Assembly: GCF_000826125.2 (NCBI RefSeq)
Contig: NZ_LN651373.1
Coordinates: 852,707-891,377, forward strand
Reading direction: 5' to 3'
Length of the DNA: 38,671 bases
From: Bhargavaea cecembensis
GTDB lineage: Bacteria; Bacillota; Bacilli; Bacillales_A; Planococcaceae
A model generated the notes under the pieces. The model saw only the letters and a program-made list of their open reading frames with translations, had not been told where the DNA came from and did no database searches. The translations under genes were made by a program, and so were the position numbers. This document shows positions 3,758 through 32,933 of the stretch, one piece after another (the first letter of the stretch is position 1; each line of letters starts with the position of its first letter).

Positions 3758-3862
3758 GATAAAGATAACGTTTGGTCGGATAAAGATAACGCTCCGCCGG
3801 ATAAAGATAACGCTCGGCTCGATAAAGATAACGTTTCGCCCGATAAAGATCACGCTCCCGCA
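3758..3862. repeat. Five-unit 21 bp tandem array (AAACGTT class, array A)
   Basis: The core GATAAAGATAACG starts at 3758, 3779, 3800, 3821 and 3842 (last unit ATCACG instead of ATAACG), an exact 21 bp period. The eight bases between cores vary (TTTGGTCG, CTCCGCCG, CTCGGCTC, TTTCGCCC). Read on the minus strand each unit starts (G)AACGTTATCTTTATC, resembling the arrays near 8761, 22503 and 32724. Confidence 0.85.
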
Positions 3863-3895
3863 AAAATCAGTCCGATCCCTGTCCCGCGGGGCAAA

Positions 3896-3933
3896 TCAAA
3901 ACCGGCCGGGCATGACGCCGGGCCGGTTGGTTT
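3896..3933 (-). terminator. Terminator after secA2-slaP
   Basis: Inverted repeat of AACCGGCCCGGC and GCCCGGCCGGTT with a short loop, followed on the minus strand by a T-rich stretch (TTTTGATTTG). Lies 10 bp beyond the slaP stop. Confidence 0.75.
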
Positions 3934-3943
3934 CAGATGTGAA

Positions 3944-4837
3944 TTATCTCGGAACGCGGGCCGTCCAGCGGGACAGGTCCGGATTTTGTTTCTGGACGAC
4001 TTCTTTCGGGAAGACGAACGTCCACGGAGTGGTCGTGTTGGCGGATACCGTCAGAGGCGGCAGCGTGAATGTGCCTTTGCAGATGACGTCTCCCGCCGCG
4101 TCAACGACTTCAAGCGGCAGCTGCTCCAGGTTGATCTTACGGGAGTAGCCGTTGCGGACGAGCAATGCGATGGCGAGGCCTCCGTCGTCCTGCGGACGTG
4201 CCTGGAAACCAGTCATGTTGAGCTCGCGCGGACGCAGTGCCGGCAGGCTTTCGACGAGTTCCTCGAGCGCTTTTTTCTGTTCATCGTCGAGGCTGTTTTC
4301 CCATTCGGGCTTCAGTTCGAGCTTGTGCGGCGCGAGGGACTGGACGTTGAAGTTGAGCGTCCAGCCTTCCTCGGGCGCTTCTTTCAGGAACTGGTCCTGC
4401 TTGTCGAACACGAACACCCACGGACGGGCGGTTTCCGGTTCGATCGAGCCGAGTTCCTGCATGTCGAATTCCTTCGACGCGGCGAGTTTGCCGTCTTGCG
4501 TGACGAGCAACAGCTCAACAGGGCCCATCTGCACCGGCTGCGGCACGGACGAACGGAAGAACGCCTTGACGAGCCATTGTCCGTTCCGCTCGTCCACGTC
4601 GATGTCGATCCCGGCAAGCGAGAGCTGGTAAGGCTTCAGCGGCTCGAGTTCATTCGCGAGGAACCGGAATACATATTCCTGCTCCTGGGGCACCTGCCAC
4701 TCGGGATGGATGCTGAGCGTCGTGTCGATGAGCTCGGCGCCTTCGCGGCCCTGGCCGCTTTCGGTCAATTCATCGGAAGAGACCGTGCTGTCGGCCCCTT
4801 TTCTGTCGGTTTTCTTGAACATGGAAAAGAAGTTCAT
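3944..4837 (-). CDS. slaP: Accessory Sec system S-layer assembly protein SlaP
   Basis: 297 residues with two copies of a roughly 110-residue domain (about 45-155 and 165-290). Each carries a PEW segment, a LxxLxPxxLxLxG segment and a closing PW-V/T-FVF element (ARPWVFVFDKQ and TTPWTFVFPKE). This duplicated layout is that of the SlaP family, which works with SecA2 in Bacillus anthracis to export S-layer proteins. No signal peptide or membrane segment, in keeping with a cytoplasmic Sec partner. Its ATG overlaps the secA2 stop by 4 bp (4834-4837), indicating translational coupling. The short N-terminal segment MNFFSMFKKTDRKG resembles the start of SecA2 (MLSIFKKS). Assignment rests on the domain duplication and on position; no S-layer gene is visible in the window. 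Confidence 0.85.
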   Translation of the reverse strand: MNFFSMFKKTDRKGADSTVSSDELTESGQGREGAELIDTTLSIHPEWQVPQEQEYVFRFLANELEPLKPYQLSLAGIDIDVDERNGQWLVKAFFRSSVPQPVQMGPVELLLVTQDGKLAASKEFDMQELGSIEPETARPWVFVFDKQDQFLKEAPEEGWTLNFNVQSLAPHKLELKPEWENSLDDEQKKALEELVESLPALRPRELNMTGFQARPQDDGGLAIALLVRNGYSRKINLEQLPLEVVDAAGDVICKGTFTLPPLTVSANTTTPWTFVFPKEVVQKQNPDLSRWTARVPR

Positions 4838-7191
4838 TGTTCCGCCTCCTCTAGTTGGTTGATCAAGCTGATGAGGTCATTCAGGATGAATTTCCTCATC
4901 TCCTGGTAATGCTTGCCGAACAGTTCCAGCCCTTCCCGCTGGTAGATCCGCATCGGGTCTTCCTGCTGGTAGCGCCGGAGTCCGATGCCTTCCTTCATGC
5001 GGGTCATCGCCTCGAGATGGCGGACCCACATCGTGTCGATCCGGCTCAGCATGTTGCGCTGGGCCGCGTCGCGGAACAGTTCATTTTCAAAAGCGGTGTG
5101 GATCTGCTCCTTGAAAGAGGCGATGGTGTCCTCAAGCTCTTTCCGGACATCTTTCTGCCGGGTGAGCTCCGGATCAAATTCCGGCACGTCCGGGAGAATG
5201 GCGGCGAGCGAACGCTTCAAGGCGTCAAGATTCCATTCATCCTGCGAGCCGGAGCCCGGCGCGTAATCCTCCAGCTCAAAGGATACCGTATCGTCGACAA
5301 GCCCGTCGGCCGTTTCGGCGAGGCGGTCTTCTTCGAGCACGCGGTTCCGGAAGGAGAACACGACGCCGCGCTGGTCGTTGATGACGTCATCGAGCTTCAG
5401 GTTGTATTCGCGCTGCGAGAAGTGGACGCCTTCGACGATCCGCTGGGTCCGCTCGGTCAGCTCATCGATGTTCTTGTTCAGGACGAGCCCGTCGTCATCC
5501 GTCTGTGCGGCGGCGACGGCCTTTTCGGTTTCTTCTTTCGCAAAGCGGCGGAACATATCATCTTCCAGGGAAATGAAGAACCGGCTTTCGCCCGGGTCGC
5601 CCTGACGTCCGGATCGGCCGCGGAGCTGGTTGTCGATCCGCCGGCTTTCGTGCTTTTCGGTACCGAGCACGAACAGGCCGCCCGTCTCGGCCACGCCTTC
5701 GCCGAGCTGGATGTCGGTGCCCCGGCCGGCCATGTTCGTCGCGACGGTGATTGTGCCGTACTGCCCGGCATCCGCGATGAGCTGGATCTCCTGCTCGACG
5801 GACTTGGCGTTCAGAAGGTGGTAGGGGAGCTTGTACTTGTCGAGATACTTGACCACTTCTTCCGACTGGAGGATCGAGGTTGTCCCGACGAGCACCGGCT
5901 GCCCTTTTGCATGGCGCTCCTTCACTTCGCGGGCGACGGCTTCGTACTTGTCCTCGATCGTCAAGTACACGCGGTCCGGCTGGTCGATGCGCTGCTTCGG
6001 CCGGTTCGTCGGCACTTGCACGACCTGCATGCCGTACACTTCGCGGAATTCCTTTTCCTGTGTCTTCGCGGTCCCTGTCATGCCGCAGAGGCCCGGGTAC
6101 ATCCGGAAGTAGTTCTGGATCGTGATCTGGGACTGCGCCTTGTTTTCATCGGTGATCTCCAGGCCTTCTTTCGCTTCGATCGCCTGGTGGAGGCCGTCGG
6201 ACAAGGTGCGGCCTTCCATGATCCGCCCGGTGAACATGTCGACGAGCGCAATCTCGTCTTTATCATTGACGATGTAATCGACGTCCCGCTTGAAGATGAC
6301 GTGCGCGCGGACGCCCTGGATGACGTAATGGTAGAGGGTCTGGTGATCGGCTTCATACAGATTGTCAACGCCGAACGCCTTTTCGACTTTGTCGATCCCT
6401 TCATCGGTGAGGGAGACGGCCTTCGTTTCCGGGTCGAACTCGTAGTCCCGGTCCTGCTCGAACCGCTTCATGAGAAGGGCGGAGATCCGGTGCAGCTCTG
6501 CGGCTGGCGGCATCTTGCCGGCGATGATGAGCGGCGTCTTCGCTTCATCGATCAGGACGCTGTCGACTTCATCGATGATGGCGAAGTGGTACGGACGCTG
6601 CACTTTCTGCGACGGATGCGAGACGAGATTATCCCGGAGGTAATCAAATCCAAACTCGGTCCCGACGCCGTATGTAATATCCGCACGGTAGGCGGCCTGC
6701 TTGGCGTCCGGCTCCATCATCGGGACGTTGAGGCCGGTCGTGAGCCCGAGGAATTGGTGGATCTGCCCGATCTGCTCAAAGTCGCGGCGGGCGAGGTAAT
6801 CGTTCACCGTGATGACGTGGACGCCTTCACCGGTCAGGGCCTGTACATAGGAAGGAAGGGAAGCGACGAGCGTTTTCCCCTCACCGGTCGCCATCTCGGC
6901 GATATTGCCCTCGGTCATGACGAGTCCGCCGATGAGCTGGACATCGAAATGACGCATGCCGAGCACACGCTTCGAGGCTTCTCGGACGACCGCAAATGCA
7001 TCGGGAACGATGTCCGCAAGTTTCGTCCCGTCCTGGAGCCGGCTGCGGAATTCTTCCGTCATGCCGGCAAGCTCGGAGTCTGACATTTTTTCGTATTTTT
7101 CTTCCAATGCATTGATGCGGTCGGTGATCTTTGTATATTTTTTCAGCTGCCGCGGCGTGGTGGCGGCAGATTTCTTGAATATGGATAGCAT
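4834..7191 (-). CDS. secA2: Accessory Sec translocase ATPase SecA2
   Basis: Drives export of a subset of proteins, typically S-layer or wall proteins, through the membrane channel. Walker A is ATGEGKT (GEGKT 103-107), followed by NDYLARRD and [15 protein letters not shown], and DEVD at 207-210 is Walker B. The second ATPase half has [12 protein letters not shown] and [12 protein letters not shown]. At 785 residues it is shorter than the housekeeping SecA (836, at 18095-20605). It ends in LISLINQLEEAEQ without the C-terminal linker and Cys-rich zinc motif, which is characteristic of SecA2. AAGGAGCG at about 7202-7209 on the minus strand precedes the ATG. First gene of a two-gene operon with slaP. 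Confidence 0.93.
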   Translation of the reverse strand: MLSIFKKSAATTPRQLKKYTKITDRINALEEKYEKMSDSELAGMTEEFRSRLQDGTKLADIVPDAFAVVREASKRVLGMRHFDVQLIGGLVMTEGNIAEMATGEGKTLVASLPSYVQALTGEGVHVITVNDYLARRDFEQIGQIHQFLGLTTGLNVPMMEPDAKQAAYRADITYGVGTEFGFDYLRDNLVSHPSQKVQRPYHFAIIDEVDSVLIDEAKTPLIIAGKMPPAAELHRISALLMKRFEQDRDYEFDPETKAVSLTDEGIDKVEKAFGVDNLYEADHQTLYHYVIQGVRAHVIFKRDVDYIVNDKDEIALVDMFTGRIMEGRTLSDGLHQAIEAKEGLEITDENKAQSQITIQNYFRMYPGLCGMTGTAKTQEKEFREVYGMQVVQVPTNRPKQRIDQPDRVYLTIEDKYEAVAREVKERHAKGQPVLVGTTSILQSEEVVKYLDKYKLPYHLLNAKSVEQEIQLIADAGQYGTITVATNMAGRGTDIQLGEGVAETGGLFVLGTEKHESRRIDNQLRGRSGRQGDPGESRFFISLEDDMFRRFAKEETEKAVAAAQTDDDGLVLNKNIDELTERTQRIVEGVHFSQREYNLKLDDVINDQRGVVFSFRNRVLEEDRLAETADGLVDDTVSFELEDYAPGSGSQDEWNLDALKRSLAAILPDVPEFDPELTRQKDVRKELEDTIASFKEQIHTAFENELFRDAAQRNMLSRIDTMWVRHLEAMTRMKEGIGLRRYQQEDPMRIYQREGLELFGKHYQEMRKFILNDLISLINQLEEAEQ

Positions 7192-7205
7192 GGATTGACG
7201 CTCCT

Positions 7206-7245
7206 TTGATAAAGTCCGTCTTCGGACACTCTCCTATTTTATCAA
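7206..7245 (-). promoter_or_regulatory. secA2 leader: extended -10 and nested inverted repeat
   Basis: On the minus strand TGATAAAAT (7236-7244) resembles an extended -10 box. Between it and the start codon lies a hairpin of GTCCG/CGGAC (7214-7227). This is nested in a second inverted repeat, TTGATAAA (7206-7213) with TTTATCAA (7238-7245). The outer arm overlaps the SD region, so folding could hide the ribosome site. Functional role is inference. Confidence 0.35.
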
Positions 7246-7390
7246 AAAGCTTTGGAAAAGACTACTTGTGCCGAAACTTCCCGAATCGTTGCGCGTCCCA
7301 TTATTTAGAGCTGTTTCAGTTGTGCGTGTTGGGGAATGGTATGAGTACGAAGGACCGTTTTTGAAGGTAAAAGTGTTTTGTTCAATCAAT

Positions 7391-7401
7391 CATGCTATAA
7401 T
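7391..7401 (+). promoter_or_regulatory. Extended -10 promoter for tagO
   Basis: TGCTATAAT with a perfect TATAAT at 7396-7401 and TG one base upstream. There is no convincing -35 at 16-18 bp. The start codon is 62 bp downstream. Confidence 0.5.
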
Positions 7402-7463
7402 ACAGTAGACCAAAAATGCGGTGGACCCAAAATAGAGTAGGCAATATTGGTAGGAGGAAGGAC

Positions 7464-8504
7464 ATGACATTCCTGACGATGATCGTCGCATTCATTGCAT
7501 CGATCTTGCTGACACCGATTGTCAAGCGACTGGCGGTCCGGCTCGGCGCCGTCGACCGCCCGAATCATAGAAAAGTACATTCACGCATCATGCCGCGCAT
7601 GGGAGGGCTCGCCATCTACGGAGCCTTCCTCATCGGATATTTCATTCTCAGGCCGGAAAGCGAATTCGCAACGTCCATCCTGATCGGATCCGCAATCATT
7701 GTGCTGATCGGACTGCTGGATGACCTGACCGAACTCAGCGCCAAGGCGAAACTCGCCGGCCAGCTTCTCGCAGCGGGCATCGTCGTCTTCTACGGCGGGC
7801 TCGACATCGACTTCATCAACCTGCCGTTCGGCGGACAGATCGACTTCGGATACTTGAGCATCCCGCTCACGCTTCTCTGGATCGTGGGCGTCACGAACGC
7901 GATCAACCTGATCGACGGGCTCGACGGCCTGGCCGCCGGCGTCTCGACGATCGCGCTCATCACGCTCGCCGTCATGGCTTCGTTCATGGATAACATGTTC
8001 GTCGTCGCGGTCGCCGCCATCCTCGCCGCATCGTGCGCCGGATTCCTCATCTTCAACTTCCATCCGGCAAAAATCTTCATGGGCGATGTCGGTTCGCTGT
8101 TCCTCGGGTTCATGATCTCGGTCCTGGCCCTTCTCGGATTCAAGAACGTCACGATGATCTCGCTCATCATCCCGATTATCATCCTCGGCGTCCCGCTGTC
8201 CGATACATTCTTCGCCATCGTTCGCAGGATCCGGATGAAACAGCCGATCTCGGCACCGGACAAATCGCATCTTCACCACTGCCTGCTGCGGGCCGGATTC
8301 AGCCACCGGCAGTCGGTGCTGATCATCTACGCGATTGCCGCCCTGTTTGGCCTGGCCGCCATCCTATTCTCCCAGGCGACCATCTGGGGCGCCTTTCTGA
8401 TCATCGGCATCCTGCTCCTCGCCATCGAGCTGTTTGTCGAAGCAATCGGCCTCGCCGGCCAAAACTACAAACCGCTCCTCAACCTGGTGCGAACACGAAA
8501 ATAG
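7464..8504 (+). CDS. tagO: Undecaprenyl-phosphate N-acetylglucosaminyl-1-phosphate transferase (TagO/WecA family)
   Basis: Transfers GlcNAc-1-phosphate from UDP-GlcNAc to undecaprenyl phosphate at the inner face of the membrane, the first step of teichoic acid linkage units and often of teichuronic acid. About 346 residues with 10-11 hydrophobic segments. Family motifs in order: VDRPNHRKVHSRIMPRMGG near the N-terminus, DDLTEL, NLIDGLDGLAAG, FMGDVGSLFLG, and the His-rich loop DKSHLHHCLLRAG near residue 270. An upstream ATG is possible at 7416, but 7464 is chosen because TAGGAGGAAG (7451-7460) sits just before it. In B. subtilis tagO is also near yvyE and degS. Single gene with its own promoter and terminator. 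Confidence 0.92.
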   Translation: MTFLTMIVAFIASILLTPIVKRLAVRLGAVDRPNHRKVHSRIMPRMGGLAIYGAFLIGYFILRPESEFATSILIGSAIIVLIGLLDDLTELSAKAKLAGQLLAAGIVVFYGGLDIDFINLPFGGQIDFGYLSIPLTLLWIVGVTNAINLIDGLDGLAAGVSTIALITLAVMASFMDNMFVVAVAAILAASCAGFLIFNFHPAKIFMGDVGSLFLGFMISVLALLGFKNVTMISLIIPIIILGVPLSDTFFAIVRRIRMKQPISAPDKSHLHHCLLRAGFSHRQSVLIIYAIAALFGLAAILFSQATIWGAFLIIGILLLAIELFVEAIGLAGQNYKPLLNLVRTRK

Positions 8505-8516
8505 CAGAAAAAATAA

Positions 8517-8562
8517 CAACCCGCACGCCGGAAGGAAACTTCGGCGGAGCGGGTTGTTTTTT
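8517..8562 (+). terminator. tagO terminator
   Basis: CAACCCGC (8517-8524) pairs with GCGGGTTG (8549-8556), with an inner CGCCG/CGGCG stem. Followed by six T. Confidence 0.85.
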
Positions 8563-8584
8563 GATTGGGGGCGGGGGAGGAGAT

Positions 8585-8727
8585 GTGTTAATAAAGGGCG
8601 AGTGTTAATTGAGGGAAGGTGAGTGTTAATTGAGGGAGTGTGAGTGTTAATCAAGGGAGGTCGAGTGTTAACCGAGAGAGGTCGAGTGTTAACATTCGAG
8701 GGATGAGTGTCAACTAAGCGAGCGGTG
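8585..8727. repeat. Seven-unit 21 bp tandem array (GTGTTAA class, array B)
   Basis: GTGTTAA or GTGTCAA cores begin at 8585, 8602, 8623, 8644, 8665, 8686 and 8707. All spacings are 21 bp except the first (17). Typical unit GAGTGTTAATTGAGGGAGG. The last unit reads GAGTGTCAACTAAGCGAGC, which links this array to the one at 22621-22725. Confidence 0.85.
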
Positions 8728-8760
8728 GGCTATTATTTGGCAGGGGCCGTCGGAGATTTA

Positions 8761-8865
8761 AACGATCCAACCCAGATACATAACGTCTCAACTGAGATAC
8801 GCAACGTTTCAGCTAAGATCAACAACGTTTCAACTGAGATACGTAACGTTTGCGATTGTGTAGAG
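8761..8865. repeat. Five-unit 21 bp tandem array (AAACGTT class, array C)
   Basis: AACGTTT-like cores at 8761 (degenerate), 8782, 8803, 8824 and 8845, exactly 21 bp apart. Units read AACTGAGATACGCAACGTTT. On the minus strand this is AAACGTTGCGTATCTCAG, the same family as the array at 32724. Confidence 0.85.
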
Positions 8866-8920
8866 AGATAATTGCAGACGGTTGCCAAAAGAGGAGGGGG
8901 GGAGGGGAACTCACAGGACA

Positions 8921-9345
8921 CGCCTCTGAATCAATGCCGTGCGCCTTTGGAATTCTCAGGCTGCGAAACGCGCCTTCGAACTCGATGATCACGGCTTTGA
9001 ATCGCTCCCACACGCCTTTGAAAAAACGGGCGGCCCAATCGCGCCTCCGAAAACACACTACGCGCCTTTGAATTCCTCCTGTTCGCCTTCGAAAAACTTA
9101 CTAATGAAATCGCGCCTCTGAATCGACGCCGTGCGCCTTTGAAATTATCAAGCTGCGAAACGCGCCTCCGAACTCGATGATCGCGCCTTTGAATCACTCT
9201 CACGCGCCTTTGAAAAACCCGGTTGTCCAATCGCGCCTTCGAAAACGCACGACGCGCCTTTGAATTCCTCCTGTTCGCCTTCGAAAAATATACTAATGAT
9301 CTCGCGCCATCAAATCACTCTCCCGCGCTTTCGAAAAACCGGCGG
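8921..9345. repeat. CGCCTTTGAA array with 21/29 bp spacing and 192 bp higher-order period (array D)
   Basis: Eighteen copies of CGCCTTTGAA or close variants start at 8921, 8942, 8971, 8992, 9013, 9042, 9063, 9084, 9113, 9134, 9163, 9184, 9205, 9234, 9255, 9276, 9305 and 9326. Gaps are only 21 or 29 bp. The block 8921-9112 is repeated at 9113-9304 (period 192 bp). A third, shortened copy lies at 9305-9345. Confidence 0.85.
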
Positions 9346-9393
9346 CCCAATCCCCCATGTGAAACACCCCACACACTCCCGTCTCCACACACT

Positions 9394-9424
9394 AAAAAAC
9401 CCCCGCAGATGCTCTGCGGGGGTT
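9394..9424 (-). terminator. Terminator of the LCP gene
   Basis: ACCCCCGCAGA and TCTGCGGGGGT with a three-base loop. A run of six A on plus gives a T-run in minus-strand transcripts. Lies 5 bp past the stop codon. Confidence 0.85.
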
Positions 9425-9428
9425 CGGT

Positions 9429-14963: not shown

Positions 14964-16349
14964 GTGAATGAATCGATCCGTGACTTCTTGCAGGGGAGGC
15001 TCTGGCTGAAGGAGCTCCTTCCATTTCCGGAGGAAGAAGTGGCAGAGGGGCTTGAAAGGGGATGGATCGGCGTACTGCCCGGAATCCACCGGCAGAACAG
15101 GCGGTTTCTGCCGGACCGGCTCCGCTGCAACCGCTGCCTGTCGACGGAGTCTGCGTCGTTCGCCTCGTTTGACTGCGCCAGATGCGGGAAGGTCTGCCAA
15201 TATTGCCGGCACTGCATCCGGATGGGCAGGGTCGCGTCTTGTGATGAGCTCGTTTACTGGGCAGGTCCGGAGCGGCCGTCCGATCCGCCTCCCGGACTTT
15301 CATGGGCAGGCCGGCTCACTCCCGCCCAGCAGAAGGCGTCGGAAGAGATCCTGGAAAGCCTCCGTCTCGGCAGGCCTCATCTGCTGCATGCGGTGTGCGG
15401 AGCGGGGAAGACGGAGATCCTGTTCCGCCCGGTGCATTCGCTTCTTGAGGAAGGGAAGCGGGTCTGCATCGCCACGCCGCGGACCGATGTCGTACTGGAG
15501 CTGCTGCCGAGGTTCCGGGCGGCATTCGGCGACGCGACGGTCCACGGCCTTTACGGCGGATCCGGTCCGGGGGAGGGATTCGCGCCGCTCGTCATTGCGA
15601 CCACCCATCAGCTGTACCGCTTCCGGCACGCGTTCGATGTGATCTTCGTCGACGAGGCCGATGCGTTCCCGTATTCGTTTGACCGGACGCTGCGGGATGC
15701 CGTCAAAAAAGCGGCCAAACCGGGCGGATCGGCGGTGTTCGTGACGGCCACCCCGTCCGCTGTGATGCTGGCCGAAACGGAGGGGGGCGGCCGGTCCGTC
15801 ATCCGCCGGCGCTTCCACGGCCATCCGCTTCCCGTGCCGAGGTTCGAAGCCCTCTGGAATTACAGAAAGCAGATTGCGGCGGGCCGCCTGCCGAAGCGAC
15901 TTTCCGAGTGGATCGCAGAGCGCCTGTCATCGGGGGATCCGTTCCTCGTATTTTTCCCGTCGGTCCGGCTGATGGAACAGAGCCTGCCCCTGTTCAATGA
16001 ACTCGACGGCCGGATCGGGGCGGTCCACGCTTCCAGCAGAGAACGGCGGGAACTCGTCCGGGCACTGCGGGACGGGAAGGTGCCGGGGCTTCTGACGACG
16101 ACCATTCTGGAGCGGGGCATCACGATACCAGGACTCCAGGCGGCGGTGCTCGGAGCCGAGGACTCGGTGTTCAGCCGATCGGCGATCATCCAGATCGGCG
16201 GCCGGGTCGGTCGGAGCGCAGACCGGCCGGACGGTGATGTCGTCCTGTTCCATCACGGAATCACGCCTGAGATGGATGATGCAGTCCGGGAGATCCGGAA
16301 GCTGAACCGGGAGGAGGAGGTGCCGGATGGACTGCCTGCTGTGCGGTGA
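14964..16349 (+). CDS. comFA: Competence helicase ComFA
   Basis: ATP-dependent DNA translocase thought to help pull single-stranded DNA into the cell during transformation. 461 residues, close to B. subtilis ComFA (463). A seven-cysteine zinc region covers 55-84 (C55, C58, C71, C74, C78, C81, C84). Walker A CGAGKTE ends near 151, the DEAD box is 230-233 (FVDEADAF), SAT-type motif III is VTATPS, and the helicase C-domain ends with QIGGRVGRS. It starts at a GTG (14964) with AAAGGAGG 14 bases upstream; the nearby ATG at 14969 is out of frame. It overlaps comFC by 23 bp. comFB, present between them in B. subtilis, is absent. Confidence 0.93.
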   Translation: MNESIRDFLQGRLWLKELLPFPEEEVAEGLERGWIGVLPGIHRQNRRFLPDRLRCNRCLSTESASFASFDCARCGKVCQYCRHCIRMGRVASCDELVYWAGPERPSDPPPGLSWAGRLTPAQQKASEEILESLRLGRPHLLHAVCGAGKTEILFRPVHSLLEEGKRVCIATPRTDVVLELLPRFRAAFGDATVHGLYGGSGPGEGFAPLVIATTHQLYRFRHAFDVIFVDEADAFPYSFDRTLRDAVKKAAKPGGSAVFVTATPSAVMLAETEGGGRSVIRRRFHGHPLPVPRFEALWNYRKQIAAGRLPKRLSEWIAERLSSGDPFLVFFPSVRLMEQSLPLFNELDGRIGAVHASSRERRELVRALRDGKVPGLLTTTILERGITIPGLQAAVLGAEDSVFSRSAIIQIGGRVGRSADRPDGDVVLFHHGITPEMDDAVREIRKLNREEEVPDGLPAVR

Positions 16350-22461: not shown

Positions 22462-22502
22462 GTCTGTTGAGCGTTCCGGCCCGGCTGGTGGCACAGATTC
22501 GC

Positions 22503-22600
22503 AACGTTTCAGCCCGGATAAACAACGTTCCCTCGCAGATACACAACGTTTCCGCGCAGATACACAACGTTCCGGCCGAGATACACAACGTTTGATGTGA
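22503..22600. repeat. Five-unit 21 bp tandem array (AAACGTT class, array E1)
   Basis: AACGTT cores at 22503, 22524, 22545, 22566 and 22587, exactly 21 bp apart. Units read GCAGATACACAACGTTTCC. On the minus strand this is AACGTTGTGTATC, matching the first units of the array at 32724. Confidence 0.85.
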
Positions 22601-22620
22601 ATCGATCAGCCGCTTCCCTA

Positions 22621-22725
22621 AGTTGACACTCAACCGGCGGAAGTTCACACCCGCTTTGCGAAAGTTGACATTCATTCCACCGAAGTTGACACTCGCCGCC
22701 TCTAAGTTGACATTCGTTCTGAGGG
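22621..22725. repeat. Five-unit 21 bp tandem array (GTGTCAA class, array E2)
   Basis: AGTTGACA-like cores at 22621, 22642, 22663, 22684 and 22705, exactly 21 bp apart. On the minus strand the unit reads GAGTGTCAACTTAG, the class of the 8585-8727 array. It directly follows E1 with a 34 bp step. Confidence 0.85.
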
Positions 22726-23696: not shown

Positions 23697-24570
23697 GACG
23701 GTCCGCCGCCACTTCCGCGAAAGCTTCAAGACCCTCGGCCGGAACGGCTGGATGACATTCGCCTCTGTCAGTGCCGTCACAGTGACCCTGCTGCTCGTCG
23801 GCGTGTTCGTGTCCATCATGCTCAACTTGAACAAGGTGGCCGAAGACCTCGAAAAGGACGTCGAGATGAAAGTCTACGTGGAGCTGGCCGCGGATGAAGC
23901 CGCGACACGGGCGCTCGAAGATCAGATCCGGGAGACCCCGGGCGTTGCAGAAGTCGTTTATTCCACGCGCAACGATGAACTGGACAAGATGGTGAAGGAC
24001 TTCGGGGAAGACTTGAAACTCTATGAGCAAAGCAACCCTTTGCGGGAAGCCTTCTATGTCAAGGCGACCGAGCCCCAGCAGACGGCGAAAGTCGCCAAGG
24101 CGATCGATGAATATCCGAATACATACGAAGTCGTTTACGGCCAGGGGAAAGTCGAAAAGCTGTTCAGCTTCCTGAACCTCGGCCGAAATGTGGGCCTCGT
24201 GCTCATCCTGGCTCTTCTGTTTACGGCGATGTTCCTCATCGCCAACACGATTCGGATCACGATCGTCGCGAGAAAAACCGAAATCGGCATCATGAAACTT
24301 GTCGGTGCCACGAACAGCTTTGTCCGGATCCCGTTCGTCCTCGAGGGAATCTGGCTCGGCATCCTCGGAGCGATCATCCCGATGATCGCCATCACCTGGG
24401 GATACATCGAGTTCTATGACTATGCCGAACCGCGGCTCCGCGGGGAAATGATCCAGATTCTCGGCCCGCTGCCGTTCCTCTACATCGTCAACGGCCTCGT
24501 GCTGTTCATGGGCATCTTCATCGGAGCCTGGGGCAGCTTCATGTCCGTACGGAAGTTCCTGAAAGTCTAA
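23686..24570 (+). CDS. ftsX: Cell division membrane protein FtsX
   Basis: 294 residues. Membrane half of FtsEX. Topology visible: TM1 at about 25-45, an extracellular domain of roughly 120 residues (about 50-165) that in relatives binds the hydrolase, then TM2-TM4 at about 170-290. The cytoplasmic coupling loop ARKTEIGIMKLVGATNSFVR is typical of FtsX/MacB folds. The ATG at 23686 with GGAGGGGG upstream is preferred over the ATGs at 23659 and 23662, which lie deeper in ftsE. The gene just downstream encodes a coiled-coil M23 hydrolase, the expected partner type. Confidence 0.95.
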   Translation: MKFRTVRRHFRESFKTLGRNGWMTFASVSAVTVTLLLVGVFVSIMLNLNKVAEDLEKDVEMKVYVELAADEAATRALEDQIRETPGVAEVVYSTRNDELDKMVKDFGEDLKLYEQSNPLREAFYVKATEPQQTAKVAKAIDEYPNTYEVVYGQGKVEKLFSFLNLGRNVGLVLILALLFTAMFLIANTIRITIVARKTEIGIMKLVGATNSFVRIPFVLEGIWLGILGAIIPMIAITWGYIEFYDYAEPRLRGEMIQILGPLPFLYIVNGLVLFMGIFIGAWGSFMSVRKFLKV

Positions 24571-24806
24571 AGAAAAGCGGAGCGGGCCGTTCAGACCTGA
24601 CAGGCATAAGATCGACGGCGGCGCGAAGCCTGCTTCGCAGAGCCGGCGGACTTATGATCCCGAGGGTCTGGCCCGCGCAGCTGGACAAAGAAAAGCGGAG
24701 CGGGCCGTTCAGACCTGACAGGCATAAGATCGACGGCGGCGCGAAGCCTGCTTCGCAGAGCCAGCGGACTTATGACCCTGAGGGTCTGGCCCGCGCAGCT
24801 GGACAA
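24571..24806. repeat. Two tandem 118 bp GC-rich palindromic repeats
   Basis: Copies at 24571-24688 and 24689-24806 differ at only three positions. Each begins AGAAAAGCGGAGCGGGCC and ends GGCCCGCGCAGCTGGACA. Each contains nested inverted repeats: GCGGGCC/GGCCCGC (outer), CATAAG/CTTATG (middle) and GCGAAGC/GCTTCGC (tip). Elements with this 'AAAAGCGG...GAGCTGGACA' layout recur in intergenic regions of Bacillaceae and relatives; that link is from memory. Confidence 0.85.
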
Positions 24807-24865: not shown

Positions 24866-26233
24866 TTGAAGCAGTCCAAGCCACTGATCGCCTCGGTCGC
24901 TGCCACCATGCTCCTAAGCTTCGGGCTCGGTGCCGGCAATGCGAGCGCAACCGCACTGGATGATCTGAAGAATGAGCAAAAGCAACTGGAACAGAAAAAG
25001 CAGAACCTTGACCAGAACATCAATAAGACCAAAACGGAGATCCAGCTGAAGTCCGCTGAGATGGACAAGCTTCTCGGTCAAATCACAGAACTTCACGGAA
25101 AAATCGATGAAACACAAGGCAAGATCGAAGCGCTTCAAGAAGAGATCAATGTGACGAAGAGCGAGATTGAAGCTCTGCGCGCCTCGATTGCAGAACTCGA
25201 ACGCAAGATCGCCGAACGTGACGCCCTTCTTCGCGACCGGGTCCGTGCGATGCAGGTGACCGGCGGTTCGACGAGCTACCTCGACGTCCTTCTCGGAGCG
25301 AACAGCTTCTCGGACTTCATTGACCGGGTTTCGGCCGTCAACACGCTGAGGGAAGCTGACCGCGAGATCATCCGCGAGCAGAAGGCGGACAAGGAACAGC
25401 TGGAAGCACAGAAGCAGATGGTGGAGCAGAAGCTCGCCGAACAGGAACAGAACAAGAAGAGGCTCGAGGAGCAGAAAGCCCAGCTTGATGCCCAGAAGAA
25501 AGAGCTTGACGGCCTTGTGACGAAGCTGGAGGAAGAGCAGTCCCGCCTCGAGAAGGAACAGGCCAGCATGGAAGCCGAGTACGATCACGTCCATGAAGTG
25601 AGCGAAGAAGTGACGCAGAAGATCGTCGCGGAACAGAACCGTCTTGCGGAAATCGCCCGCAAAGCGGAAGAAGAGCGCAAGCGGAAAGCGGCGGCTGAAG
25701 CCGAAGCCCGCCGTCAGGCAGCCGCGAAAGCTGCTTCCAGCCAGAAAGCTTCCTCTTCTTCGTCGGCATCGGGCAGCAGCTCGGCCACCCATTCGTCCAG
25801 CAGCAACACGGCAGTGAGCCAGCCGGCCGTTTCGAGCGGTGCCTGGACACGTCCGGCAAGCGGCCGGATCTCGTCGACATTCGGATACCGTCCGATCGGC
25901 TGGGCATCTTCGAACCATGCCGGCGTTGATATTGCGAACGGCATCGGCACGCCAATCGTTTCGGCTGCGGACGGCGTCGTCTCGTTCGCCGGACAGTTCG
26001 GCACATACGGCAACGTCGTCATGGTGACGCACTCGATCAACGGCACGATCTACACGACGCTGTATGCCCATATGTCCGGATTCAATGTGGGAACCGGCCA
26101 GCACGTCGGCAAAGGCCAGCAGATCGGCCGGATCGGCGTCACCGGACGGACGAGCGGACCGCACTTGCACTTTGAACTCCATATCGGAAGCTACGGCAAC
26201 CCGGTCAACCCGATGCGCTATGTTCCGATTTAA
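24866..26233 (+). CDS. Coiled-coil murein hydrolase with M23 peptidase domain (EnvC/PcsB-like)
   Basis: 455 residues. Signal peptide 1-29 ends at NASA-TA, so it is secreted. Residues about 31-270 are almost continuous coiled coil (Gln/Glu/Lys-rich), broken near 125-165 by a conserved segment (GGSTSYLDVLLGANSFSDFI) found in PcsB/EnvC-type hydrolases that dock on FtsX. A Ser/Ala linker follows at about 295-325. The C-terminal LytM/M23 domain has HAGVDIANG (Zn ligands), YAHMSG and GPHLHFE. It starts at TTG (24866); AAAGGGG lies 10 bases upstream, and the ATG at 24858 is out of frame. Its place directly after ftsEX makes it the likely FtsEX-controlled wall hydrolase. B. subtilis instead uses CwlO, an unlinked NlpC/P60 enzyme. 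Confidence 0.9.
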   Translation: MKQSKPLIASVAATMLLSFGLGAGNASATALDDLKNEQKQLEQKKQNLDQNINKTKTEIQLKSAEMDKLLGQITELHGKIDETQGKIEALQEEINVTKSEIEALRASIAELERKIAERDALLRDRVRAMQVTGGSTSYLDVLLGANSFSDFIDRVSAVNTLREADREIIREQKADKEQLEAQKQMVEQKLAEQEQNKKRLEEQKAQLDAQKKELDGLVTKLEEEQSRLEKEQASMEAEYDHVHEVSEEVTQKIVAEQNRLAEIARKAEEERKRKAAAEAEARRQAAAKAASSQKASSSSSASGSSSATHSSSSNTAVSQPAVSSGAWTRPASGRISSTFGYRPIGWASSNHAGVDIANGIGTPIVSAADGVVSFAGQFGTYGNVVMVTHSINGTIYTTLYAHMSGFNVGTGQHVGKGQQIGRIGVTGRTSGPHLHFELHIGSYGNPVNPMRYVPI

Positions 26234-26245
26234 ACCGATTCATCC

Positions 26246-26273: not shown

Positions 26274-26400
26274 CTATGGACTGTGTCCATCGTTAAAAAA
26301 CAGACACAACCTCCACTCAAACAGGTGCGGAAGTGTAGACGGGAGCGGGGTCCATCCACTACCCTTGATACAAGAGCAAGCGGGTCGGGAGGCTGCAGGA

Positions 26401-27036
26401 ATGCCGGTGACGAAGTGGATCTTAATCTTAAATCTGACGGTGCCGTCCTCGTGGATCGCCGTGCTCGCCGCGATGGCGGTTGCCTACGGGGCAGTCCGGA
26501 TCCGGAAGGGGAAGGAATCGGCCGGGCTGTATGCGGACGCGGCGTTCTGGTTTGTCCTCGTCTGGAAGTTTTCCTACTTGCTGACGCATTTCGGGATCTT
26601 CCTGAAGTCGCCGCTTTCCGTCCTTTATTACAACGGAGGTTTTTTCGGGGCTGTCCTCGGATTGCTTGCGGTGCTAGCCTTTCTTTACTTCAAGGGGGCG
26701 GGGGCCGAAGGATGGCTGCTCCTGGCGGCGGTCGTCACGCAGTCGGTGTACCAGCTGGCGATGGTCTTCCTGAACGAGGGCGGGCTGTTGCCGAAATTCG
26801 TGACGGCGGCCGGATTTGCCGTTCTTCTGCTGCTCGTCTTCCTGAAAGGCAGGCTGGAGGGGGGATGGGCGGTCCAGCTGGCGGTGCTGATGGCTGCAGT
26901 CCATCTGCTGGCAGCCGCGGTGCAGCCGGGGGGCCTTACGGGATTCCCGCTGCTTGCGACGGTTGTGTTCAGCATTTATTTCCTATCGTTAAATAGAATG
27001 ACATCATTACAAAACGGGAGGCACTCGCATGAATAA
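26401..27036 (+). CDS. Multi-pass membrane protein of unknown function
   Basis: 211 residues with about seven hydrophobic segments. The first follows MPVTKWILILNL; the others are near 45-65, 75-95, 100-120, 130-145, 155-170 and 180-200. No recognised motif and no cysteine pair. The open frame extends upstream to 26257, but GGGAGG (26387-26392) fits the ATG at 26401 and the upstream part crosses a terminator. Its end overlaps the next gene by 8 bp, so it is translationally coupled to a TlpA-type thioredoxin. That suggests a shared task in extracytoplasmic thiol chemistry or cytochrome maturation, but it does not look like CcdA. Function not known to me. Confidence 0.75.
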   Translation: MPVTKWILILNLTVPSSWIAVLAAMAVAYGAVRIRKGKESAGLYADAAFWFVLVWKFSYLLTHFGIFLKSPLSVLYYNGGFFGAVLGLLAVLAFLYFKGAGAEGWLLLAAVVTQSVYQLAMVFLNEGGLLPKFVTAAGFAVLLLLVFLKGRLEGGWAVQLAVLMAAVHLLAAAVQPGGLTGFPLLATVVFSIYFLSLNRMTSLQNGRHSHE

Positions 27037-27646: not shown

Positions 27647-27716
27647 TCGGAAATGCCGGTTCATGTGTCGTATGACCTTCCGGCCGTTCATACAATTGGA
27701 CGGAGGAGGGGTGCAT

Positions 27717-29150: not shown

Positions 29151-29249
29151 AAAAGGGTGCCCGACCCGGCCGAAAAGCGTTTCTATCCCACCCGGCGTTT
29201 GATAGAATGGAAGGAAGCTGTACGTTCTATCAGGGATGGTGAGTAGTCG

Positions 29250-30419
29250 ATGATCCAGGAGATTTTGTTGGAATTGCTGAAAGCGGCGGGCCGGTTTTTC
29301 CTGAACCCGCTGTTCTATATCGTCCTGCTGTTCTCGGTTCTCCTCGGGTACGCCCGGGTGAAGCGCGAGCGGCGGGACTTTCGCGTGCGTGTGGATGAGG
29401 GGTTCACCGAACTGCGGAGGGTGCTGAAGGAGTCGTGGGTCCACGCCCTCGTCCTGTCTGCCGTCATCGGGCTCGCCGGGCTCACGGTTCCCCGCGGATG
29501 GCTCGTGCTGCTCTGCGCGGCGATGCTAATCGTCGTCCTGTCGTTCCAATATGCGCTCGCTGCGCCTGTCTACGCGGCCGGAGCGGCGACGCTCGCTTAT
29601 TGGCTTCTCGGCCGATTCGGCGTGCCGACCGATCTGCCGGTGATCGGCTGGTCCTACGACGGTCTTCCGGACGGCATGGCGGTTACCGTGCCGCTCATTG
29701 CCGGTCTCCTGACCGCGGCCGAAGGACTGCTCGTCCGCCGGCATGCCGCCGAGCACGCTTCGCCGATGATCATGAAGACGGCGAGGGGGCTCCACGGGGC
29801 GGCTTACCGGACGAAGCGCCTCTGGCTGCTGCCGCTGCTGTTCGTCCTGCCGGGGAATGCAATCGCCGAAGCGGTTCCGTACTGGCCTCAGTTCACGCTC
29901 GGCGGGACGGCCTTCACACTGATCGTCATCCCGGCCGTCATCGGGTTCCGCCAGACGGCAAAGCACACGATGCCGGAAAACCTTCTTCCGCCGCTCGGCA
30001 ACCGCATCCTCTGGACCGGGGTTCTCACGGCGGCGGCTTCATTCCTCGCCCTGTGGGAACCGGCCGCGGGCTGGATCGTGCTCGGTGCGGCCGTCGTCGT
30101 GCGCGCCCTGTTGTCCGGATGGACCGCCTCCCGGGAGAAAAAAGGCAACTTCGCCGTTTCCCCACGGAGCGAAGGCGTGACGGTCGCGGCCGTCCTGCCG
30201 GGTTCCCCCGCCGACAAAATGGGCATCCTTCCCGGCGAAACGATCCGGAAAGTGAACGGCATCTCGGTCTCCGACGAACGGGAATTATATGAAGCCATCC
30301 AGGTGAACGCCGCCCATTGCCGGGTCGAAGTCGTGAACCGGGACGGCGAGCTCCGGCTTTGCCAGCATGTCATCTTCCGCCACGACCACCACCGCATCGG
30401 CCTGCTCGTCATCCGCTGA
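29250..30419 (+). CDS. minJ: MinJ-like PDZ membrane protein
   Basis: 389 residues, against 397 for B. subtilis MinJ (YvjD), which bridges DivIVA and MinCD to restrict division at poles and old septa. Multiple membrane segments fill about 10-300: clear ones near 15-32, 65-83, 85-105, 110-130, 145-160, 190-215, 215-235 and 255-285. A C-terminal PDZ domain is at about 305-389 (VLPGSPADKMGILPGETIRK). The assignment rests on this architecture, length and position directly after ctpB; sequence identity is not directly measured. CsbA follows 24 bp later. The ribosome site GGGATGGTGAG is moderate. Confidence 0.82.
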   Translation: MIQEILLELLKAAGRFFLNPLFYIVLLFSVLLGYARVKRERRDFRVRVDEGFTELRRVLKESWVHALVLSAVIGLAGLTVPRGWLVLLCAAMLIVVLSFQYALAAPVYAAGAATLAYWLLGRFGVPTDLPVIGWSYDGLPDGMAVTVPLIAGLLTAAEGLLVRRHAAEHASPMIMKTARGLHGAAYRTKRLWLLPLLFVLPGNAIAEAVPYWPQFTLGGTAFTLIVIPAVIGFRQTAKHTMPENLLPPLGNRILWTGVLTAAASFLALWEPAAGWIVLGAAVVVRALLSGWTASREKKGNFAVSPRSEGVTVAAVLPGSPADKMGILPGETIRKVNGISVSDERELYEAIQVNAAHCRVEVVNRDGELRLCQHVIFRHDHHRIGLLVIR

Positions 30420-30443
30420 TTGCGACCACAGGAGGGACGAACC

Positions 30444-30698
30444 ATGCTTGAATCGTATGTGATGAAAATCATCCTTGCCTTATTTCTTCCCGGGCTTCTC
30501 GTCGTATTGCTCACGCGGATCACGTACCATCATGTGGTCGGCCTCGTCCTGACCGTCGCGCTCATCGCGGCCTCGGTCTATGCGGGCTACACCCACACAT
30601 GGCTGCTGTACGCGGTCGATGCCCTTTCGCTCACCGTCGGCTTTTACTATGCCGGCCGGATGATCCGGAACGCCCGGAAAGGCCCGAAGGAAGAATGA
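30444..30698 (+). CDS. csbA: CsbA-like small membrane protein
   Basis: 84 residues, three hydrophobic segments. The pattern ALFLPGLLVVLLTRITYHHVV closely resembles the B. subtilis CsbA N-terminus. CsbA is a sigma-B-controlled membrane protein of unknown function. GGAGGGA at 30431-30437 fits the ATG at 30444; the frame from 30420 is an extension through the minJ end. In B. subtilis csbA is followed by uvrB-uvrA; here it is followed by a terminator and convergent azlD. Confidence 0.85.
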   Translation: MLESYVMKIILALFLPGLLVVLLTRITYHHVVGLVLTVALIAASVYAGYTHTWLLYAVDALSLTVGFYYAGRMIRNARKGPKEE

Positions 30699-30713
30699 AT
30701 GAAAGAATGAAAG

Positions 30714-30758
30714 ACGCCCTGCACAACCGGTTCCGGCCGGGGATGCAGGGCGTTTTTT
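30714..30758 (+). terminator. csbA terminator
   Basis: ACGCCCTGCA (30714-30723) with TGCAGGGCGT (30744-30753) and an inner ACCGG/CCGG stem. Five T follow. Confidence 0.85.
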
Positions 30759-30775
30759 GTAGTCCGGCAGGTTGT

Positions 30776-31090
30776 TCAGCCGAACAGCAGACTGTAGACC
30801 GCCAGTATCGCAATCGTCCCGAGAACGGTCCCCATCACACCGCCGCCGAACCAGGCGATCCCCACGGCCGCCGCCAGTCCGATAGCGCCGAACAGCAGAT
30901 CCGTCTCCTGCGCGTAGAGGACGGCGGGGAAGATCAGCGCGCCGAGGACGGCATACGGAATGTTTCGGAGCACGCCGGAGACAACCGGCGGCAGCTCGCG
31001 CCCTTCCAGAAAAGTGAGCGGGATGGCGCGCGGGATATAAGTCACCGCCGCCATGCCGAGGATCATCCACCAGTACCAGCTGCCCATCAC
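30776..31090 (-). CDS. azlD: AzlD-family branched-chain amino acid export subunit
   Basis: 104 residues with about four membrane segments (MGSWYWWMILGMAAVTYIPR at the start). The small partner of AzlC; together they export branched-chain amino acids or analogues such as azaleucine. The motif TYIPRAIPLTFLEGRELPPVV is typical of the family. The ATG at 31090 overlaps the azlC stop by 4 bp, and GAAGGAGGG gives a strong ribosome site. Convergent with csbA. Confidence 0.9.
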   Translation of the reverse strand: MMGSWYWWMILGMAAVTYIPRAIPLTFLEGRELPPVVSGVLRNIPYAVLGALIFPAVLYAQETDLLFGAIGLAAAVGIAWFGGGVMGTVLGTIAILAVYSLLFG

Positions 31091-31812
31091 GATCCCTCCT
31101 TCTGCCCGGCCGCATGCCGGATCAGGGCCCCGCGGCGGGTGTAAATCATTTCCACGATGATCGCGGAGGCAAGCGTCGACACCATGATCGCCCAGCCGGT
31201 CGACAGCAGCTTCGTCCAGAAAAAGAACCCGTTCAGCGCAGCCGCTGTCAGCGCCAGCAGGACGACTTTCCGGTTCCCTTTCATCGACGGGACGAGGAGC
31301 GCGACGAACATCGCATAAAGTGCGATCGACATGGCGGCCTGCAGGAACAGCGGCAGGTTCGCGCCGATCACATGGCCGATGCCGGTGAAGACGACCCAGC
31401 TGCCGTATGCCATGAGAATGACGCCCGCACCGAACGAAGTCTTCACGCGGCCTTCCCCGTGCGTCGAGATGACGGAAAATGTCTCGTCCGTCACGCCGAA
31501 CGCATAGACCGCTTTTTTCCAGCGGGGGGCCGGCTGCATCTTTTCATTGAGTGAAGCCGTCATAAGAAAATGCCGGATGTTGACGATGAACGTGTTGAGC
31601 ACGATCACGATCGGATCGACATGCTTGGCGATCAGGCCGAGTGCGATGTACTGCGAAGCGCCGGCGAACACGAACAGGCTCATTCCGACCGCTTCGATGA
31701 TCGACAGGCCGGTCGTTTTGGCCAGGAGGCCGAATGTCAGGGCGATCGGAAAATAGCCGATCGCAATCATGGAGCCGGCCTTCACGCCGGCTTTGAATCC
31801 GTCTTGCTGCAT
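31087..31812 (-). CDS. azlC: AzlC-family branched-chain amino acid exporter
   Basis: 241 residues, seven or so membrane segments. Family features: GYFPIALTFGLLAKTTGLS, FAGASQYIALGLI, IVNIRHFLMTASL and FGVTDETFSVIST. Large subunit of the AzlCD exporter. The ribosome site is poor (GGGG 6 bases before the ATG). On the minus strand TATAAT lies at 31847-31852, but I see no good -35. In B. subtilis azlCD sits in the azlB operon, elsewhere on the chromosome, so its place here differs. No AzlB/Lrp-type regulator is adjacent. Confidence 0.92.
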   Translation of the reverse strand: MQQDGFKAGVKAGSMIAIGYFPIALTFGLLAKTTGLSIIEAVGMSLFVFAGASQYIALGLIAKHVDPIVIVLNTFIVNIRHFLMTASLNEKMQPAPRWKKAVYAFGVTDETFSVISTHGEGRVKTSFGAGVILMAYGSWVVFTGIGHVIGANLPLFLQAAMSIALYAMFVALLVPSMKGNRKVVLLALTAAALNGFFFWTKLLSTGWAIMVSTLASAIIVEMIYTRRGALIRHAAGQKEGS

Positions 31813-31952
31813 ATGACCCCAGCTTTCTGATTGAATAGTATGAGATATTATACTACAAGAGAACGCGACGGGGGCGGAGGATTTTCAGCAGGAGGCTAAC
31901 TGTCGTAAAATAAGGGAAAGAACATATTGGACACACGGCGGAGGTTGGACTG

Positions 31953-32624
31953 ATGGAGGACTTTTTTGATATCGATACAATAATCGAAATAAGCCGGCAC
32001 TACCGGGCGCTCGGCCCGCTTCTCGGATTTTTGCTGCCGTTCGTCGAAGCGTTCCTGCCGTTTCTGCCGCTGTTTGTGTTCGTCATCGCGAACGCAACCG
32101 CTTACGGATTTTTCTTCGGGTTCCTGCTCAGCTGGGCGGGAACGGTGGCAGGTTCGTACATGGTGTTTCTGCTCATCCGGAGATTCGGGGAGACCCGGCC
32201 GTTCCGCTTCCTGACGAAAAGCGCAAAAGTGCGGAAACTGATCCACTGGGTGGAGCGCAACAGCTTCGGGCCGCTGTTCGTCCTCCTGTGCCTCCCGTTC
32301 ACCCCGTCTTCGCTCGTGAACCTCGTCGCGGGTCTTTCGAATATGAAAAGGAAAGTATACCTGGTGACGCTCATGGCCGGGAAGTTCGTCATGATCGGAA
32401 CGGCGAGCTTCATCGGCTATGACCTGAAGGCCCTGTTCACGCAGCCGGTCCGGACGGCCATCGTGGTCGTCGTCATCATCATCCTCTGGTACGCCGGCAA
32501 GCACCTCGAAGCCCGGCTCAACCGGAAAGTCGAAGCCGACTTCCGCGAAATCTCCGAACAGCAGGCCGCCGCGTCCGCGCAGCAGAATGCGGAGAAAAAG
32601 GACAAGCCCCGCGGAGACAAATGA
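31953..32624 (+). CDS. TVP38/TMEM64 (DedA superfamily) membrane protein, YhjE-like
   Basis: 223 residues. Membrane segments near 20-45, 48-72, 110-135, 140-160 and 165-190, with a charged Glu/Lys/Ala tail from 195. The conserved core has LLPFVEAFLPFLPLFVFVIA and a SWAGTVAGSYMVFLLIRRFG segment. Related proteins flip or move membrane lipids such as polyprenyl phosphate; the role here is unknown. In B. subtilis the yhjE homologue also lies a few genes from addB, usually with the signal peptidase gene sipV, which is missing here. GGCGGAGG precedes the ATG. Confidence 0.85.
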   Translation: MEDFFDIDTIIEISRHYRALGPLLGFLLPFVEAFLPFLPLFVFVIANATAYGFFFGFLLSWAGTVAGSYMVFLLIRRFGETRPFRFLTKSAKVRKLIHWVERNSFGPLFVLLCLPFTPSSLVNLVAGLSNMKRKVYLVTLMAGKFVMIGTASFIGYDLKALFTQPVRTAIVVVVIIILWYAGKHLEARLNRKVEADFREISEQQAAASAQQNAEKKDKPRGDK

Positions 32625-32667
32625 TGACGGAATCCCGCCGACCGAGCAGGCCCCCTCTCGTTTTCCT

Positions 32668-32712
32668 TCCCGCTCACCCTTCGGTACAATGAAGGAAGCG
32701 GGATCTTTTAAT
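32668..32712 (+). terminator. Terminator after the TVP38-family gene
   Basis: TCCCGCT (32668-32674) with AGCGGGA (32697-32703) and an inner CCTTC/GAAGG stem, then CTTTTAATTT. Confidence 0.55.
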
Positions 32713-32723
32713 TTCTATTGGAG

Positions 32724-32933
32724 AAACGTTGTGTATCTAAGGGGAAACGTTGTGTATCTTGGGCGAAGCGTTTCGTATCTAAGGAGAAACGTTGTGTATC
32801 TAAGAGGAAACGTTAATTAGCTGAGGCGAAACGTTAATTAGCTAGGGTGAGACGTTAATTAGCTAAGATGAAACGTTAATTAGCCAAAGCGAAACGTTAA
32901 TTAGCTAAGCCTAAACGTTCATTATCTCCCTCT
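32724..32933. repeat. Ten-unit 21 bp tandem array (AAACGTT class, array F)
   Basis: AAACGTT cores (one AAGCGTT, one AGACGTT) at 32724, 32745, 32766, 32787, 32808, 32829, 32850, 32871, 32892 and 32913: ten units, exactly 21 bp each. Units 1-4 continue GTGTATCTAAG-like; units 5-9 continue AATTAGCTAAG-like; unit 10 is degenerate. It begins 12 bp after the upstream terminator and ends before the addB promoter. Confidence 0.9.

Follow-up and report, generated by a model that had tools for sequence, protein, structure and literature searches.

Helically phased 20- and 21-bp repeat arrays at gene ends in Bhargavaea are probable rows of protein-binding sites

Intergenic DNA in the genus Bhargavaea (Caryophanales) carries arrays of short direct repeats, each unit consisting of a core and a variable linker. 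We describe them here starting from a stretch of 38,671 nucleotides (the window; C3:852707-891377) in the 3.16-Mb, four-contig genome of Bhargavaea cecembensis (G000). The arrays keep strict steps of 20 or 21 bp, their cores are constrained, and one class has a defined dyad geometry; they show no strand bias and no RNA folding signal, are scarce in divergent intergenic regions and change core from one species to another. Judged from sequence, they are probably helically phased rows of binding sites, placed at gene ends, for sequence-specific DNA-binding proteins.

In the mechanism that we propose, a core of 12-16 bp would be contacted by protein and the remainder of the 21-bp unit would serve as spacer. 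Successive molecules would then occupy the same face of the double helix at intervals of about two turns, building an extended nucleoprotein complex, and in one class, found in six Bhargavaea species, two such rows would run outward from a dyad with a spacing mostly of 19 or 8-9 bp. Each class may have its own, probably paralogous, protein; classes could drift by co-evolution and spread between arrays through ectopic exchange, and the complexes may serve as boundaries or roadblocks that separate adjacent transcription units, most of them convergent.

The genome was sampled as the window and 20 further stretches, each of 20 kb (439 kb in all, 14% of the genome, with scripted gene calls), and the region counts given for G000 below refer to this sample. 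Comparison genomes were seven other Bhargavaea (G001-G007), 29 from other genera of the family and 24 from other families. When lags of 12-65 were scanned in the 174 intergenic regions longer than 100 bp, 42 array regions were found at lag 21 and four at lag 20, while none of 50 block-shuffles gave an array region at lag 21. The signal thus extends well beyond the window, in agreement with the genome-wide style of array proposed by the initial annotation. All further lags (40-42, 50, 51, 60, 62, 63) derive from these arrays, as multiples or sums of their steps. The regions with lag 50 (three) or lag 51 (one) also have lag 21 and fit 21+29, a combination seen in class D, where the unit-by-unit reading, made in the window, gives runs of units at 21 bp with 29-bp gaps. 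The 29-bp step is probably not confined to the window, as a lag of 50 recurs in three further regions (L037 near 13723, L051 near 16668 and L488 of G003 near 15529).

After deduplication, with identical arrays and regions entered once, arrays occupy 41 of 270 intergenic regions, and the 56 arrays cover 8,098 of 60,043 bp of intergenic DNA (~13%). Exact patterns gave in G000 48 overlapping matches for three AAACGTT units, and matched 54 times for AACGTTNNNNATCT and 40 times for two A2 units. Genes of the sample show scattered multiples of three (four at lag 21, six at lag 42). Coding repeats were rejected as the source of the intergenic arrays taken as a group; the A2 unit, for instance, is interrupted by stop codons in each of the six frames. 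Three lag-21 stretches within genes were excluded from the arrays. One of them, at 25064-25151 inside the open reading frame 24866-26233, has a similar counterpart in G001 and probably represents coding heptads.

Divergence between species separates core from linker. In seven alignable orthologous arrays of G002 and G006, at loci found because their units are kept in both species, substitutions affect 67 of 742 sites in the core (14 positions) and 96 of 361 in the linker (Fisher p 1e-13). The corresponding counts are 16/90 in dyad centres, 389/2796 in other intergenic DNA (core versus other intergenic, p 3e-4) and 1497/15409 in genes; gaps number 41 in the core, 24 in the linker and 0 in the dyad centre. 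Change within the core is uneven: seven of the 14 positions, picked post hoc, have two changes in 371 together, while others reach 14/54, as would be expected of a protein-contact pattern. A shared mechanism that keeps 21-mers regardless of their sequence, as first suggested, is not supported, since conservation is higher in the core than in the linker and the step is class-specific. A class with a 20-bp step, GGAGTATGG, occurs in both G000 and G007, which indicates that the step belongs to the class. Another 20-bp-step array, at L044:1671-2127, has more than 20 units of two alternating types (GATTTAAAATATGGA and GAATTACAATATGGA).

A further regularity is the inverted pairing of arrays of the GAATGACGAAAC class, whose core is present in G001, G002, G004 and G006. 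At 21 of the 26 listed G002/G006 loci (L430 and L432 overlap and hold the same pair), the arms run outward from a centre; none of these loci has an inward arrangement at less than 60 bp, and inward neighbours at about 70 bp occur. Searching eight genomes for two half-arms of this class 3 to 33 bp apart, with 31 spacings allowed, returned 90 matches, which fall at 55 loci of six species, and 0 in the backward control. The innermost spacing at these 55 loci is 19 bp in 45 cases, 8 bp in five and 9 bp in two, with 18, 28 and 30 bp once each; 19 and 8-9 bp are one helical turn apart. Core constraint and fixed dyad spacing together point to a function at the DNA level.

Arrays lie preferentially where genes end. 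Among 48 convergent regions 13 hold arrays, compared with 25 of the 176 tandem and three of the 46 divergent ones (convergent versus divergent p 0.012; both 3'-end types versus divergent p 0.11), which supports the expected location at gene 3' ends. In 16 stretches from the same genus, most of them picked for arrays, the counts are 10/19, 15/82 and 2/38, respectively. A position after the terminator, also claimed at first, is borne out in part: terminator-like sites, called by a simple hairpin-plus-T search, lie between the gene 3' end and the array at 27 of 51 facing ends, but only past the array start at nine and nowhere at 15.

More than ten cores occur in G000 alone. They had been described as unrelated, which is only partly correct, as ACGTT is common to three classes at four window sites; across the genus, CGA[AG][AT][CG] opens many cores, and a half-core is common to many classes. 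All seven other Bhargavaea genomes carry such arrays, fewer than G000 and with mostly different cores: GAAAGTGACGAAT in G001 and G005, GAGTCCCTACC in G003 and GAAAGATCAATAAG in G007, while GAGTGAGGAGAGTT is common to G000 and G003, and GAATGTTAAGCAAA (G000) and GAATGTGAAGCAA (G005) form a near-identical pair. The AACGTTNNNNATCT pattern has no match in 60 relatives, the seven of the same genus included. The motif CGA[AG][AT][CG], repeated four times at 21 bp, matches 50, 15, 19, 8, 5, 10, 4 and 4 times in G000-G007. Among the 29 genomes from other genera of the family it is present in four (G015 48, G018 14, G016 1, G026 1), and it has 0 matches in the 24 genomes from other families. The backward control of this grammar is not clean (G000 42, G003 4, five other family genomes 10, including three in G016), and the matches in G016 and G026 are therefore unconvincing. 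G015 (L391/L233) and G018 (L392/L234) have 21-bp arrays of their own, of CGAATGTCCC and CAGAGTCGAAATAGCG types, some of those in G018 lying within called genes.

The 16 same-genus stretches have lag 21 in 26 of 139 intergenic regions, lag 20 in two and lag 12 in one, the remaining lags being multiples or sums; a separate set of stretches from the genus, not picked for arrays, has lag 21 in 2 of 138 regions and no other lag. Lag 21 is rare in 16 stretches from the family's other genera, although no lag is commoner there (3/112 regions, other lags at most one), with intergenic examples in G008, G016 and G018 (the last in a stretch picked for arrays), and in 20 stretches from other families it does not stand out (1/86). 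AAACGTT at a 21-bp step was matched in at least 110 stretches of public genomes from many phyla; many of those listed are coding or unrelated 21-mers and some may be non-coding arrays. Tandem arrays of 21 bp as such are thus not confined to the family.

The turnover of arrays can be followed in class A. Ten of the 33 A-type arrays in the fetched loci hold both A1 and A2 units, always A1 first, with one switch and in register. The flanks of the 33 arrays are mostly unrelated, but those of L004, L010 and L013 are shared, and L404 shares them in part, so that independent compound cases are fewer than ten; the shared flanks include a stretch that we take to be 5S rRNA-like. Arrays often end in a hybrid A2 unit, ACGTTAATTATCT, which could be an intermediate, and ATC is present in 6 of 13 last versus 2 of 45 inner A2 units (Fisher p 0.0009; scored by eye and post hoc). 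A1 and A2 look like successive versions. None of the window arrays was found at the syntenic place in stretches of seven relatives (the G001 stretch ends before the last array), where gene order is otherwise kept but five of the seven lack the genes at 3944-7191. Between the genes at 27029 and 27717, the scan detected a GAGTGTTAAGAAA array in G005, reading by eye showed one in G002 and G006 as well, and G007 has a relic. Arrays therefore come and go, and some persist across species.

Such turnover is also what would be expected of selfish or neutral tandem repeats, a bacterial satellite generated by slippage, spread by ectopic recombination and tolerated only at the 3' ends of genes, where it would leave promoters free. 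This is the rival that survives best, although we consider it unlikely. It would account for the paucity of arrays in divergent regions and for their absence from syntenic places, and the ten compound arrays, all A1 then A2 in register with differing last units, appear as if homogenised inside. Adjacent linkers in G000 are clearly more alike than random pairs in three of 11 classes (A1 0.48 versus 0.36, A2 0.53 versus 0.35, C3 0.57 versus 0.35). However, they are near random, little or no more alike than random pairs, in the other eight. Slippage would yield many periods, whereas the basic steps are only 20 and 21, and the satellite explanation is further opposed by the constraint of core relative to linker between species and by a dyad spacing that stays fixed though the centre sequence varies.

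A less probable alternative is that the arrays are sites for transposases or replication proteins, that is, Tn7, Mu or IS21-type ends or plasmid iterons, left in the chromosome or acting there as decoys. Sites of this kind are direct repeats about 20-22 bp apart, and the ends of Tn7 and Mu are mutually inverted, both of which resemble the arrays; in addition, four IstB_IS21 matches in G000 lie above the family cut-off. These score low (26.9-33.2 bits, cut-off 24.1), however, the family also matches 13 of 14 control genomes, and the G000 matches are probably DnaC/DnaA-type proteins. Mu_transpos_C was matched in one of eight genomes (G006 only) and in 0 of 14 controls. One 791-bp array region was searched in plasmid and phage records and had no match there, which counts against iterons and led us to reject a phage or plasmid origin. 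In viral contigs, two anchor patterns matched 140 stretches; the matches listed look like unrelated tandem repeats, mostly coding.

Orientation and folding bear on whether DNA or RNA is the acting form. Of 58 unique arrays of G000, 46 intergenic ones were classed by strand and 12 dropped. In tandem regions, 13 arrays run with the gene direction and 15 against it, and the G-rich strand carries 23 of the 46; neither indicates a bias. No folding signal was detected on either strand of 40 of the 56 arrays (mean z -0.02), and the window has no Rfam 15 match at gathering score. The lack of strand bias together with the lack of a folding or Rfam signal speaks for double-stranded DNA as the acting form. 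RNA elements acting post-transcriptionally (motifs in 3' untranslated regions, small-RNA sponges or bidirectional hairpins), which the position at gene 3' ends and the potential of inverted pairs to fold back might suggest, are for these reasons the least probable explanation, and a hairpin loop would need no spacing of 19 or 8-9 bp, though the folding set did not treat the dyad class separately.

Several observations weigh against rows of protein-binding sites. We found no binding protein, a reading by eye of 379 sampled proteins brought no expanded DNA-binding family to light, and no binder gene was seen beside the 20-bp classes when their neighbours were read in the same way. Neighbouring genes are ordinary and of many kinds (eight examined, one of them without a Pfam match, and 14 by eye). 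The 29-bp steps misfit simple two-turn phasing, and the relatives are far poorer in arrays than G000 (2/138 versus 41/270 regions). Neither G000 nor G003 has any match to the dyad class. Other classes of G000 form two close pairs, both in L051, of which one is outward at 40 bp and the other inward at 32 bp, and three inward pairs at 76-111 bp are present in that genome. The core as a whole (9.0%) changes hardly more slowly than genes (9.7%), gaps are proportionally as frequent in the core as in the linker, the seven best core positions were chosen after the fact, and the choice of orthologs by units kept in both species lowers core divergence.

With these points taken into account, rows of protein-binding sites still appear to us the probable explanation. 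More tentatively, and with considerable doubt, Bhargavaea and perhaps other genera of the family might possess an undescribed chromatin-like system, in which diversifying DNA-binding proteins with private 14-bp sites form phased filaments at gene ends (dyad-nucleated in one class), in dialects rewritten at many loci between species. If the arrays are protein-bound, about one eighth of the sampled intergenic DNA would serve gene-end nucleoprotein complexes, a use of which we found no prior description, and the arrays would be candidates for a bacterial counterpart to boundary or insulator elements. Site dialects that change between species while the geometry stays constant would allow the co-change of a DNA-binding protein and its many sites to be tested.

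The window itself contains seven arrays (Table 1). All those listed initially are present where they had been placed and have a step of 21, but class D, at 8920-9345, mixes 21 and 29. The range of 5-18 units fits most of them, the exception being the four units at 8774-8837, and different classes do lie side by side, as A1 and B2 do.

Table 1. Repeat arrays in the window
Array	Position	Strand	Units	Step (bp)	Unit sequence
A3	3758..3862	-	5	21	GAAACGTTATCTTTATC + linker (- strand reading)
B2b	8583..8722	+	about 7	21	GAGTGTTAATTGAG
A1	8774..8858	-	4	21	GAAACGTTGTGTATCT
Class D	8920..9345	-	18		GCGCCTTTGAA (+ strand)
A1	22495..22599	-	5	21
B2	22620..22724	-	5	21	GAGTGTCAACTT
Compound A1/A2	32723..32932	+	10	21 (every step)

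The units themselves are placed at 3758-3842 (A3), 22495-22579 (second A1 array), 22620-22704 (B2) and 32723-32912 (compound array). The A3 array is flanked by two minus-strand genes and follows a terminator-like hairpin (by eye). B2b lies 3' of a glycosyl transferase family 4 gene and a terminator-like hairpin; it keeps the 21-bp step from 8600 to 8705 with one unit diverged, and has a degenerate first unit at 8583. Class D is situated in a convergent region, adjoins a LytR_cpsA_psr gene and falls inside a 192-bp sequence duplicated in two copies, its steps at 8920-9325 being 21 bp in 11 of 17 cases and 29 bp in six. The second A1 array is 3' of a cytochrome c gene and a terminator-like hairpin, with B2 immediately upstream of it in the minus-strand reading. 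The compound array, between a VTT_dom gene and addB, has four A1 units, then five A2 units (GAAACGTTAATTAGC) and a hybrid last unit.

Two other features of the window are independent of the arrays. A 118-bp unit, unrelated to the 21-bp arrays, is repeated twice in tandem at 24569-24806 with 97% matches, and 4834-7191 on the minus strand encodes a second, SecA2-like protein with 48% identity to SecA, a similar one being listed only in G004 and G007 among the seven other Bhargavaea genomes. Elsewhere in G000 there are exact tandem duplications of ~0.5-2.6 kb (for example L035:13198-15240, L041:14612-16742 and L043:2547-4915), many with an offset equal to their length plus one. Six of seven junctions inspected have a single N, and the duplications therefore look like scaffold-join artefacts, which may explain the 6.7% contamination estimate of this genome; segmental duplication through arrays was rejected on the same ground.

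Among known systems, iterons and the site arrays of regulators and centromeres are direct repeats with a period of about two helical turns; each is found at a single origin, promoter or centromere, with the gene of its binder alongside. The arrays described here share the two-turn spacing but occur at many loci, at gene 3' ends, and no Rep gene was present among the neighbours looked at. CRISPR or other guide-RNA arrays, found at one or few loci beside an effector, were rejected given arrays in 41 of 270 regions. As to a TALE-like binder, the TAL_effector profile matched 0 of eight genomes and also no control genome.

No published family with these units was found in the full-text literature, a body that leaves out most subscription papers, so that absence from print does not follow. 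STAR elements of Staphylococcus are direct repeats in intergenic DNA whose G+C-rich core of 14 bp, T(G/A/T)TGTTG(G/T)GGCCC(C/A), is interspersed at 40 bp or more; the S. aureus genomes shown have 62-90 such motifs, distributed over 32-39 loci (PMC3532100). They resemble the arrays in their 14-bp core, locus-specific spacers, locus sets not common between species and lack of a known function, but have one core at least 40 bp apart, compared with more than ten cores, a 20/21-bp step, fixed-spacing dyads and 56 arrays in 14% of the genome here (PMC3532100). By eye, no listed array core resembles a TGTTGGGGCCC-type STAR core, and the steps, core included, are 20 or 21 bp, and 29 in places, short of 40 bp.

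TAACTGA heptamers of Beggiatoaceae, Cyanobacteria and Bacteroidetes are contiguous 7-mers of one main sequence, which in the BOGUAY genome lie mostly just 5' of start codons in one orientation (PMC4679880). They are likewise abundant, short, intergenic, direct and patchy between species, whereas the arrays combine a core with a variable linker, lie at gene 3' ends and have no orientation bias (PMC4679880). Contiguous 7-bp repeats upstream of starts do not describe the arrays: the basic lags are 20 and 21 (in scans from 12 and from 9), and divergent regions are the poorest in arrays. REP/BIME elements are extragenic, species-specific and regularly spaced, as the arrays are, and protein-binding, as the arrays are proposed to be, but they are palindromes linked to an IS200/IS605-type transposase, while the array cores read as asymmetric (PMC2817692). 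The matching RAYT profile (Y1_Tnp) hits 0 of eight Bhargavaea genomes and 5 of 14 controls.

Spaced motif pairs have in common with the arrays an intergenic location, a fixed spacing with a variable spacer and, for some, a preference for convergent genes; their function is also described as unknown (PMC5217627). They differ in being single pairs and not arrays, and none of the eight pairs in Table 7 of that paper matches the array cores or the genus (PMC5217627). Set beside these systems, the arrays of Bhargavaea behave, as far as sequence can tell, as phased protein-binding sites under selection, and their geometry, which follows the helical turns, points to an undescribed set of DNA-protein complexes at gene ends.

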